Positions 46,314-50,860 of a stretch of DNA of 64,000 nucleotides are shown one piece after another. The stretch comes from an uncultured Christensenella sp. (GTDB lineage Bacteria; Bacillota; Clostridia; Christensenellales; UBA3700). The first letter of the stretch is position 1. Each line of letters starts with the position of its first letter. The translations under genes were made by a program, and so were the position numbers. The notes under the pieces are model-generated. The model was not told the DNA's origin and searched no databases. It was given only the letters and a program-made list of their open reading frames with translations. The stretch spans positions 1 through 64,000 of the forward strand of contig CASERZ010000012.1 of assembly GCA_949290515.1 (NCBI GenBank), read 5' to 3'.

Positions 46314-46552
46314 CGGTCTTTCCGATGAGTAAAATTTGCGTGCGATACTTGAAAAGACAATTCGGAATAACGTTTTTTTGAGACTTAATTCACAACTTTG
46401 TAATTTCCATATAAAAATTGCAAAATTTACATTTTTAATGTTGCATAGGTATAAATCTTAAGTAGACTAAACAGGCTATATAATAATAACTTAGAAGTGG
46501 TAATATATTATTTATATACGCACAATCTTTGATAAACGTTTGGGAGGTCAAT

Positions 46553-47614
46553 ATGGATTTTTGGGGTATAGCCGCACAGTTATGTTTGCTTGCTGTGGGT
46601 TTTGTGTTCTTGTCCAAAGGCGCGGACTGGTTTGTAGACGGAGCGTCGTGGATTGCTAAGAAATTCGGTATTCCGCAGATAGTAATAGGACTTACGATAG
46701 TGGCTTTCGGCACGTCTTTGCCCGAAGCCGCAGTCAGCATTACGTCGGCGGTGCAGGAAAGCGCAGAGCTTGCGATAGGAAATATCATAGGCAGCAATAT
46801 CCTCAATATATTCCTGATATTGGGTATATCGGCGTTGTTTGCTTCGCTTACCGTGCAAAAGACTACTTTATATATCGAAATACCATACACGGTAGTTATC
46901 AGCGTAGTCCTTATGATAATGGGCTTTATAGGAGGTCAGCTCGGCTGGATTGACGGTCTTATTCTTTGGGTACTTTTTATTGCGTTTTTAGTTTATCTCA
47001 TCGTATTGTCTATGAAAGGTAAAAATAAAAATCCCGAGCTTCTCAATCCTGTAGACGGTGCAGAACAAAACAATACCGCTGACGTAGTCGTCGAAGCTGA
47101 AGGAGCGGCGGTTGCCAAGACGGAGAAAAAGGGCGTCGAAGCACTCAAAATGATTGCAAAACTCGTATTCGGCATATCAATAGTCGTACTAGGTTCGCAG
47201 ATGGCTGTCAACGGCGCGAGAACCATTGCGAGAGAAGTGGGAATGAGCGAAAGTCTTATAGGACTTACGATAGTTGCTTTCGGTACTTCGCTTCCCGAAC
47301 TCGTTACTTCGGTAGCTGCGGCGCGTAAGGGCGAATGTGACATCGCGATAGGAAATATCGTGGGTAGCAATATTTTCAATATTCTGTTTATTCTCGGTAC
47401 GTCGGCATTGATTACGCCTATAGCGTACAACACCAGCTTCCTTACAGGCTTTACCTTTGACAACATTATGGCAATAGCCGCTGCGGTAGTGCTTTTCTTG
47501 TGTATCGTACTCACAAAGGACAAAAAACTCAAAAAAGCGGGCGGCATAACAATGCTTGTGATTTACGCGGCATATTTTGCGTGGCTTATCGTCAAGGACT
47601 TTAAATTCAACTGA
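46553..47614 (+). CDS. Calcium/sodium antiporter (CaCA family, YrbG-like)
   Basis: 353 residues from ATG 46553 (GGAGG 5 nt upstream). Two inverted halves each carry the alpha-repeat: VIGLTIVAFGTSLPEAAVS with AIGNIIGSNILNIFLILG, and LIGLTIVAFGTSLPELVTS with AIGNIVGSNIFNILFILG, holding the ion-binding Glu and Asn. An acidic cytosolic loop at ~160-195 (NPVDGAEQNNTADVVVEAEG) is longer than average. About ten transmembrane helices. Exchanges Na+ or H+ for Ca2+; the exact ions are not certain. Confidence 0.94.
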   Translation: MDFWGIAAQLCLLAVGFVFLSKGADWFVDGASWIAKKFGIPQIVIGLTIVAFGTSLPEAAVSITSAVQESAELAIGNIIGSNILNIFLILGISALFASLTVQKTTLYIEIPYTVVISVVLMIMGFIGGQLGWIDGLILWVLFIAFLVYLIVLSMKGKNKNPELLNPVDGAEQNNTADVVVEAEGAAVAKTEKKGVEALKMIAKLVFGISIVVLGSQMAVNGARTIAREVGMSESLIGLTIVAFGTSLPELVTSVAAARKGECDIAIGNIVGSNIFNILFILGTSALITPIAYNTSFLTGFTFDNIMAIAAAVVLFLCIVLTKDKKLKKAGGITMLVIYAAYFAWLIVKDFKFN

Positions 47615-48843: not shown

Positions 48844-49283
48844 ATGACTGAAAAAGAAAAGGGCGCAATGGGTATGTTTTACGACCCCAACAACGACGTT
48901 GAGCTTACCAAGGACAGAGAAAGGGTAAAAGACAAGTGTTTTGAATACAATAATATTCCGCCTTCCCGCAGAGAGGAAAGAAAACGCAAGATACTTGAGA
49001 TACTGGCGGAGCAAAAGGGGATTTTCTTATAGAATCGCCGTTCAACTGCGATTACGGCTACAATACTTTCGTAGGCGAAAATTTTTACGCTAATCACAAT
49101 CTTGTCATACTCGACACCGCAAAGGTTACGATTGGGGACAACGTCTTCGTTGCGCCCAACTGCGGTTTTTACTGCGCGGGACATCCCGTGGATAAGGATG
49201 AGAGAAACAAGGGCATAGAATATGCTCTTCCGATAACGGAGAAAGACAAGGGTAGATTTCCCACCGCCGCAAAGAAGCAATGA
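48844..49283 (+). pseudogene. Frameshifted and truncated maltose O-acetyltransferase-type gene
   Basis: The first frame (48844-49032) starts MTEKEKGAMGMFYDPNNDVE and ends in a stop at 49030. The family continues in another frame from about 49031: IESPFNCDYGYNTFVGENF, VTIGDNVFVAPNCGFYCAGH and NKGIEYALPIT. Restoring one base near 49028 would join them as GIFLIESPF. After ALPIT the sequence departs from the family and stops at 49281-49283, so the second half of the left-handed beta helix is missing. Two lesions make it a pseudogene, though a sequencing error could explain the first. Confidence 0.8.
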
Positions 49284-49383: not shown

Positions 49384-49412
49384 TTGACATAAATTTTCAA
49401 ATAATTTAAAAT
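49384..49412 (+). promoter_or_regulatory. Promoter of the oadB leader
   Basis: TTGACA (49384-49389), 17-nt spacer, TAAAAT (49407-49412); transcription should start near 49419. Confidence 0.8.
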
Positions 49413-49418
49413 AAGACT

Positions 49419-49560
49419 GTAAATTCCCAGGCGCGGGGAGTAGTCGGCGTGTGTGCGTGACACGCAATTAAATCGGTAACACGGAGAGTTTCTCCCGGTT
49501 TAATTTGAAATGACGAGACCGTATCGGACCGCTCAAAGCGGCTCGGTACGGTTTTTTGAT
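49419..49560 (+). promoter_or_regulatory. Riboswitch-like leader with terminator, before a Na+-pump gene
   Basis: The leader has GGGGAGTAG (49435-49443), a stem GCGTGT/ACACGC (49447-49465), a stem AATTAAATCGG/CCGGTTTAATT (49467-49506) with an inner GAGA/TCTC, then GACGAGACCG (49512-49521). The last motif overlaps the 5' arm of a terminator ACCGTA..CCGCT-CAAA-GCGG..TACGGT (49519-49552) with TTTTTT. GGGGAGTAG at the start and GA-GACC at the end recall the yybP-ykoY manganese class; the cargo would also suit a sodium sensor. The class is not settled. Confidence 0.6.
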
Positions 49561-49583
49561 AAATAGTTAAAGGAGTGTTTGCT

Positions 49584-50601
49584 ATGGATTTTTTGATTGA
49601 ATCTATATCACAGGTCACCTGGCAGAACGTTGTCATGTGGCTTATCGGCGGACTTCTTATCTTTCTTGCGATAAAGAAGGATATGGAACCCGCGCTGTTG
49701 CTTCCGATAGGTTTCGGCGCGATACTCGTTACTTCTGTTTATCGGTATAGGCGCGATGATAGACTTCGGTCCGCTGCTTTCAAATCCCAAGCTGTTCCTG
49801 CTGGGCGGTGCGGCGCAGTTCGGTATATTCCTTATCATATTGCTTGCTACAATGATAGGCTTTAATATAAACGACGCTGCGGCTATCGGTATAATCGGCG
49901 CGGCTGACGGTCCTACATCGATACTTGTAGCGATGAAACTGGGCAGTAAGTTCCTTGGCCCTATCACCGTCGTAGCGTACTCATATATGGCGCTTGTTCC
50001 TATTATTCAGCCTGCGGTCGTCAAGCTCTGCACGACGAAGAAGGAAAGACTCATCAAAATGGAATACAACCCCGTATCCGTTTCTCACACCACAAAGGTT
50101 CTTTTCCCGATAGTCGTTACTATTATCGCAGGACTTATCGCACCCAAGTCGCTGGCGCTTGTCGGCTTCCTGATGTTCGGTAACCTCCTCAGAGAATGCG
50201 GCGTTCTGAGACTTCTCAGCGAAACCGCGCAGAACATTCTTGCAAACCTTATAACCCTGCTCCTCGGCATCACGATCGCTTCTCAGATGAAGGCAGAAAC
50301 GTTTGTCACCTGGGAAACTCTGCTGATACTCGTTCTCGGTCTTGCGGCATTCGTATTCGATACCGTTGCAGGCGTTATGTTCGCAAAGTTCATGAACCTG
50401 TTCTCAAAGAAGAAGATCAACCCGATGATCGGTGCGGCCGGTATATCCGCATTCCCGATGTCGGCGCGCGTAATACAGAAGATGGGTCTGAAAGAAGATC
50501 CCAACAACCATCTGCTTATGCACGCTATCGGTGCGAACGTATCTGGACAGATAGCTTCCGCTATCGTAGGCGGTCTCATAATCGGCCTTGTGCTGGCTTA
50601 A
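49584..50601 (+). pseudogene. Na+-translocating decarboxylase beta subunit with internal deletion and frameshift
   Basis: Beta subunits (OadB/GcdB/MmdB type) decarboxylate carboxybiotin and pump Na+. The N-terminus is in one frame from ATG 49584 (AGGAG upstream; MDFLIESISQVTWQNVVMWL, PALLLPIGFGAILV). It jumps at about 49736 to another frame (LFIGIGAMIDFGPLLSNPK) and continues to 50601 through AADGPTSILVAMKLG and GNLLRECGVLRL. By comparison with the family some 40-60 residues between AILV and LFIGIG are missing, so the gene is broken or the assembly collapsed. Codon use with many CTG, and several GATC sites, differ from neighbours. No alpha or biotin subunit is nearby. Confidence 0.82.
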
Positions 50602-50614
50602 CGGAGGTGGAAAT

Positions 50615-50860
50615 ATGAATATGATTTCTTTGCTTGGTATTTCTCTCGATCTTACTCCGATGGATAAGACAAACGTGCTTAAGTCTCTTGAGATAATGTG
50701 GAAGGGCGTTCTCGCAATATTCATCACTATAGCGATCATCCTTTTCGTATCCTGGGGAATCAACACGATATGCAACAAAGCCCGCGCCGCGGTTGAAAAG
50801 AAGAGAGCGGAGCAGCAGGCGAACAAACAGGACGGAAGCGGCGAAAACAAAGCCGAGTAA
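50615..50860 (+). CDS. Small membrane protein, OadG-like
   Basis: 81 residues from ATG 50615 (GGAGGTGG 7 nt upstream), 13 nt after the beta-subunit stop. One transmembrane helix (GVLAIFITIAIILFVSWGIN), then a charged tail (ARAAVEKKRAEQQANKQDGS). Topology and position fit the gamma/delta subunit of Na+-translocating decarboxylases, but these are poorly conserved. It shares the foreign-looking codon use of the preceding gene. Confidence 0.55.
   Translation: MNMISLLGISLDLTPMDKTNVLKSLEIMWKGVLAIFITIAIILFVSWGINTICNKARAAVEKKRAEQQANKQDGSGENKAE

Follow-up and report, generated by a model that had tools for sequence, protein, structure and literature searches.

A leader with a terminator layout upstream of oadB

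In the 64-kb stretch of DNA analysed here (hereafter the window), a gene encoding a Na+-pump subunit is preceded by a leader that a preliminary description had read as a full ligand-gated termination layout with yybP-ykoY-like end motifs, offering two interpretations: a new cargo for a known riboswitch class, or a different metal sensor. The locus raises the question of what kind of RNA this leader is and which ion, if any, it would sense. Every element of the described layout (promoter, leader motifs, two stems, terminator overlap and ribosome binding site) was found letter for letter, and the control elements are as follows:

49384-49412, forward strand: promoter, TTGACA and TAAAAT separated by a 17-nt spacer (11/12 matches)
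49515-49557, forward strand: intrinsic terminator, stem 49515-49555 and T-run 49552-49557 (-25.6 kcal/mol), mutually exclusive with P1
49570-49575, forward strand: ribosome binding site, AAGGAG

The same promoter arrangement is seen in the leaders of relatives, and transcription would start at about position 49419, with the oadB start codon (ATG) at 49584. The motif GGGGAGTAG at 49435-49443 is the sole copy in the window (0.16 expected in shuffled sequences), and GACGAGACC at 49512-49520 runs into the 5' arm of the terminator. Taken together with the terminator, the whole leader has a more stable fold than shuffled sequences (z = -3.0), and most of the relatives folded have a terminator starting at the same place. 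A simple terminator scan picked the P3.2 hairpin (49483-49495) and missed the real terminator, which was located by energy folding. The 5' arm of the terminator takes in CCGU (49519-49522), which is also the 3' strand of P1, and through this overlap ligand-gated termination is indeed the predicted layout.

The leader is a conserved, structured RNA

Between promoter and terminator, the leader can be drawn as a compact aptamer made of the following segments:

49427-49526, forward strand: aptamer, a three-way-junction, P4-less yybP-ykoY-like RNA (covariance model R1, 101.6 bits; model R2, 78.1 bits, E=1.1e-18; covariation)
49433-49436, forward strand: P1 5' strand GCGG, partner 49519-49522 (both-sided changes in 2 of 4 pairs)
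49437-49442, forward strand: L1 5' strand GGAGUA (invariant in 18 of 18 sequences of alignment A3)
49447-49465, forward strand: P2 hairpin of variable length (three pairs with both-sided changes)
49466-49505, forward strand: P3 arm, comprising P3.1 (49466-49475 with 49496-49505), L3 and P3.2 (49483-49495) (covariation)
49476-49482, forward strand: L3 loop GUAACAC, UA type (aligned to the L. lactis and X. oryzae loops of PMC6754395)
49511-49522, forward strand: UGACGAGACCGU, which contains the P1.2 3' strand, the L1 3' strand GAGA and the P1 3' strand CCGU

The unconstrained minimum-energy fold of 49427-49526 consists of exactly P1, P1.2, P2 and P3. The single-sequence fold is misleading when the RNA is cut at the terminator (49425-49522, z = 0.11), and extension to 49526 makes it fold correctly. 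A nucleotide search found the leader in 15 of 99 related genomes, all of them within the family of the window, and RNAalifold recovered P1, P1.2, P2, P3.1 and P3.2 from these 15 sequences with no prior structure. Extending the family leaders by four loci from other genomes gave an alignment of 18 sequences (A3), in which 97.7% of the cells were paired and 11 of the 27 pairs had changed on both sides, the covariation being located in P1, P2, P3.1 and P3.2. In a leader from a genus of another family (L275) the P1 letters are wholly different and complementarity is nevertheless kept. None of 500 shuffles, a control that ignores relatedness, reached any of the five measures used, and slid structures, a control that does allow for relatedness, paired only 29-42%. 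The leader is consequently a conserved structured RNA, far beyond what chance would produce.

A divergent relative of the yybP-ykoY riboswitches

The Rfam comparison suggested in the preliminary description, with the yybP-ykoY, Na+ and Li+ classes, gave no match in any of them. No Rfam family reached its threshold with the window leader, and RF00080 (yybP-ykoY), Na+-I (DUF1646) and the Li+ families (nhaA-I, nhaA-II) were all absent from the results when 4227 families were searched at E values up to 10. RF00080 likewise found no match over the whole genome of the window or in nine other leaders of the same type from relatives. The small RNA RF02617 and sau-41 were considered as the identity of the leader and rejected, their matches being sub-threshold.

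The kinship became visible with models built from the leaders themselves. R1, built solely from the 15 oadB leaders, retrieved within the same family a second, lower-scoring set (28-45 bits) with the loop ACAUACU, identical to that given for X. oryzae in PMC6754395, lying before mntP-like genes, and in the order, class and phylum it found further leaders before MntP, P-type ATPase and CaCA (Na+/Ca2+) exchanger genes; MntP (PF02659) was confirmed beside several of them. Some mntP-type leaders also score sub-threshold with RF00080 (L034, 32.2 bits; L035, 25.3 bits), and RF00080 also scores one oadB leader (L120, 34.4 bits, E=8.5e-6). R2, built from 88 leaders of both loop types described below, retrieved the E. 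coli mntP Mn2+ riboswitch (22.6 bits, E=7e-5) and gave a weak match (10 bits) at E. coli alx. Since these models tie the leader to the E. coli mntP riboswitch as well as to ordinary mntP leaders, in line with the resemblance proposed earlier from the end motifs, we regard it as a divergent yybP-ykoY relative without P4. The preliminary description had not mentioned the loss of helix P4. The mntP leaders of the same genomes lack this helix as well, which makes its absence a trait of the whole group rather than of oadB leaders. By strict membership the leader does not belong to RF00080, and it is best called a P4-less, UA-loop variant of the yybP-ykoY superfamily. Mn2+ binding by yybP-ykoY RNAs was reportedly established in two papers of 2015, and the leader may well work like one of these switches.

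In two families, CA-type leaders were also seen before a gene resembling a TetR-type regulator (L031, 1501-1591; L115). RF02617 matches several mntP-type leaders below threshold, reaching 40.4 bits in L108 (1505-1618), and this family may be a Mn2+ riboswitch filed as a small RNA.

A single fixed change beside the metal-binding adenosine

In the yybP-ykoY structures L3 has been aligned as UCA41AUUC (L. lactis) and ACA48UACU (X. oryzae), and an invariable L3 adenosine provides an N7 contact to Mn2+ (PMC6754395). A49478 corresponds to this A41/A48 and forms an invariant column in A3. Immediately before it, U49477 stands where the relatives examined have a C, giving the loop CGNUANCACG, with U in all leaders of this type (UA leaders, as opposed to CA-type leaders). 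Taking the C before the discriminator A as a defining feature would be our own reading of the sequences compared rather than a published rule. Both L1 and the discriminator A are retained in all UA leaders, and GGAGUA also occurs in nearly all the CA-type relatives listed.

The UA loop was present in 20 of 20 UA loci (the 15 family genomes plus L046, also seen as L233, and L234, L237, L244 and L275), over differing P1, P2 and P3 sequences and in at least three genera, all of the hosts being Christensenellales where classified. The pattern scan required UA, and its matches give the spread of the loop and not its frequency, whereas the R1 surveys were free of this requirement. Wherever the gene is visible, oadB lies downstream of a UA leader; L237 has too little downstream sequence. 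As read from the listed sequences, 103 non-UA leaders keep C before A, a figure that is not a strict count because the script check was loose. The nearest CA loops, UCAACAC (L056), UCAUCAC (L066) and UCAGCAC (L082), are unlike the UA loop in their first two letters only.

The converse association does not hold. In families f1, f4, f10, f23, f26, f29, f42 and f92 the same stand-alone oadB has a CA-type leader, in several cases with loop letters resembling those of E. coli alx, and the idea that the UA loop is bound to oadB in general was rejected for this reason. In the protein tree, CA-type leaders are scattered (11 changes) and UA leaders are confined to two subclades of one clade, for which reason the UA loop looks like a derived form. 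Both interpretations offered in the preliminary description are affected by these observations: the new cargo for a known class is supported by the CA-loop leaders before oadB elsewhere, and the different metal sensor is still a possible reading, given that the UA loop is constant, restricted to oadB leaders and adjacent to the adenosine that binds the metal.

The controlled gene is a stand-alone oadB paralogue

The Na+-pump cargo was confirmed by a TIGR01109 match (E = 4.9e-104), and two open reading frames follow the leader:

49584-50601, forward strand: stand-alone oadB-like gene, sodium ion-translocating decarboxylase beta subunit (TIGR01109 in both fragments)
50615-50860, forward strand: small membrane protein of 81 aa, similar in position and length to an OadG-type gamma subunit (ORF)

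Two properties of this gene were absent from the preliminary description, which the present analysis, taken as a whole, partly supports. First, it is a stand-alone paralogue: no oadA adjoins it, and oadA is found, together with a separate oadB, on a different contig of the same genome (G000:C1:216219-218899). A tree of 94 proteins separated the stand-alone from the oadA-linked type at 100/100. Second, the window copy is broken: comparison with L002 and L003 places a 113-nt out-of-frame deletion at about 49730, and against the sister genome G008 the gene agrees fully over its first 146 nt before the 113 nt drop out and the frame shifts. The deletion reflects either a real pseudogene or an assembly fault, and intact copies are present in relatives. 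The gene for the small membrane protein, which had no NCBIfam match, is conserved beside oadB in relatives, and it may tentatively be named an OadG-type gamma subunit.

About 70 of 200 genomes of the order carry a stand-alone oadB copy, and the leader lies directly upstream in 14 of the 69 stand-alone loci whose upstream region was searched. A search for yybP-like motifs before the remaining stand-alone oadB genes revealed the full element in none of those checked. Control of the yybP type over stand-alone oadB thus recurs in several families. Most of the genomes used are Christensenellales metagenome assemblies (Candidatus Ornithoclostridium, uncultured Christensenellaceae). In the genome of the window (G000), R2 also located a second aptamer, with the CA-type loop ACAUGCU, before MntP (C19:2280-2369); G008, G028 and G242 each have two aptamers as well, so that an ordinary mntP aptamer was found in 4 of 4 UA-bearing genomes checked with R2.

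Some further features of the neighbourhood were recorded. A gene resembling a sugar O-acetyltransferase (48844-49283, identified by eye) is apparently split over two frames, so that two neighbouring genes, this one and oadB, look damaged. Compared with L002, L003 and L004, the region 49427-49730 shows a mosaic likeness: the aptamer is nearly that of L004 (G034), whereas the start of oadB is identical to G008 and about 98% like G040. Either recombination or a chimeric assembly would account for this pattern. A calcium/sodium antiporter gene lies at 46529-47614, about 2 kb upstream of the leader, and in L110 a CaCA-like gene (3-884) lies two genes upstream of a leader-controlled oadB; a functional link is possible, and so is chance. 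Upstream of one leaderless stand-alone oadB, two near-threshold matches to Gut-1 RNA (RF01706) were observed (L205, 394-490 on the forward and 557-642 on the reverse strand).

Proposed mechanism and alternative explanations

We propose, with a probability of roughly 0.6, that the leader is a cis-acting metal riboswitch that works through transcription termination and is built on a P4-less yybP-ykoY scaffold, acting as an ON switch for oadB, with Mn2+ as the favoured ligand. When the metal is scarce, the terminator (49515-49557) would form and transcription would halt before oadB. A metal ion bound between L1 and L3 would dock the two legs of the RNA and stabilise P1 (49433-49436 with 49519-49522), depriving the terminator of the base of its 5' arm; with the terminator blocked, the stand-alone OadB membrane protein would be made. 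The direction of switching is suggested by the known members, in which Mn2+ docks L1 against L3 and stabilises P1 (PMC6754395), since the overlap between P1 and the terminator means that a metal acting in this way would prevent termination here. The ligand would be a divalent metal read by A49478, and two points favour Mn2+: the adenosine that contacts it is retained, and elsewhere the same gene is preceded by CA-type leaders. OadB could then serve metal tolerance, either by renewing the Na+ gradient for Na+-driven Mn2+/Ca2+ exchangers or by joining in export. Several points weigh against this proposal: RF00080 matches no UA leader, and in every one of them U takes the place of the C before the discriminator A; the UA-bearing genomes checked with R2 have an ordinary mntP aptamer, so that a further Mn2+ sensor with another sequence would have to be explained; and so would Mn2+ control of a sodium pump subunit.

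According to a more tentative view, possible though not the one we prefer, the UA leaders constitute a distinct riboswitch class, a yybP-ykoY derivative dedicated to the stand-alone OadB paralogue, in which the altered letter beside the conserved adenosine would have retuned the metal site to an ion other than Mn2+. The ion would be another divalent metal or, less likely, Na+.

The first of these options, in which scaffold and switching are the same and the UA loop shifts the specificity to, for example, Ca2+ or Mg2+, seems to us rather unlikely, but it is backed by several lines of evidence. The loop is constant in all 20 UA loci, which span at least three genera and varied P1, P2 and P3 sequences; every visible gene behind it is an oadB, in contrast to the many genes preceded by CA loops; and it is found together with a canonical mntP aptamer in the same genome. 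Moreover, yybP variants of altered divalent-metal specificity have been deemed likely (PMC7266159), and a related S. pneumoniae mgtA switch has been described as Mn/Ca-sensing (PMC11434433). Against a changed divalent ion, the Mn2+-contacting adenosine is unchanged, one ligand would explain both the UA leaders and the CA-type leaders found before the same gene in other families, and a loop whose proteins fall into two subclades of one clade could be lineage drift.

That the scaffold has turned into a Na+ riboswitch, matching its Na+-pump cargo, is improbable: the cargo itself and the precedent of the Na+-I class, which sometimes controls oxaloacetate decarboxylase genes (PMC9337991), speak for it, but no Rfam Na+ or Li+ family matches, the site described for this scaffold suits a dehydrated divalent ion contacted by N7 of an adenine (PMC6754395), and CA-type leaders precede the same gene. 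Finally, it is very improbable that the leader has no ligand switch and is instead a constitutive attenuator or a small RNA whose end is the terminator. The best sub-threshold match, RF02617 (SSRC10; 22-31 bits against a threshold of 56 bits), itself has the yybP-ykoY layout, with GGGAGUAG, a CGUCAAUACGG loop and GCGAGACC in its consensus; in many genomes the element accompanies a single type of gene; and P1 and the terminator are mutually exclusive in the window.

Comparison with known systems

The riboswitch proposed here, with Mn2+ as its favoured ligand, has its closest characterised counterpart in the yybP-ykoY Mn2+ riboswitch (RF00080; E. coli mntP/alx, L. lactis, X. oryzae), with whose crystal structures the architecture agrees segment by segment, P4 excepted. 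They share the switch-bearing P1, P2 and P3.1/P3.2, the L1 element GGAGUA with (G/A)AGA forming an internal loop between P1.1 and P1.2, a seven-letter L3 with A in third place, and a terminator that overlaps the P1 3' strand. In contrast, the UA leader is a three-way junction lacking P4 instead of a four-way junction with P4, has U for C before the discriminator A, finds no match with RF00080 and precedes a stand-alone oadB. Junction and L1 are also those of the P4-less leaders in the same genomes (before mntP, P-type ATPases and CaCA exchangers) and of the oadB leaders of other families, in which P1 occurs with or without a terminator in register, but the loop of these relatives is of the CA type (ACAUACU, UCANNAC and similar), never UA. 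RF02617, listed as Streptococcus sRNA 10, shares the P4-less layout in its consensus and differs in its CA loop, in its sub-threshold score and in a name that implies no riboswitch. With Na+-I (DUF1646 motif) the leader has in common the oxaloacetate decarboxylase genes occasionally controlled by that class and the predicted ON direction, but Na+-I folds into P1 and P2 with conserved clusters (PMC9337991), and there is no covariance-model match between them.

Nothing on point was found, in the part of the literature searched, on a link between oadB or a decarboxylase and yybP-ykoY RNAs, and a review has predicted that some yybP RNAs have changed metal specificity (PMC7266159). The UA leader is a concrete, small and naturally replicated candidate for such a change, with one loop change and one gene type, and the unchanged sister aptamer in the same genome provides an internal control, which together make the question of specificity open to direct test. 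Irrespective of the ligand, the association of yybP-type control with a subfamily of stand-alone OadB proteins, seen across several bacterial families, suggests that metal homeostasis involves a protein otherwise known from sodium pumps; the UA leader itself would either bring a new gene under manganese control or be a form of the switch retuned to another metal.
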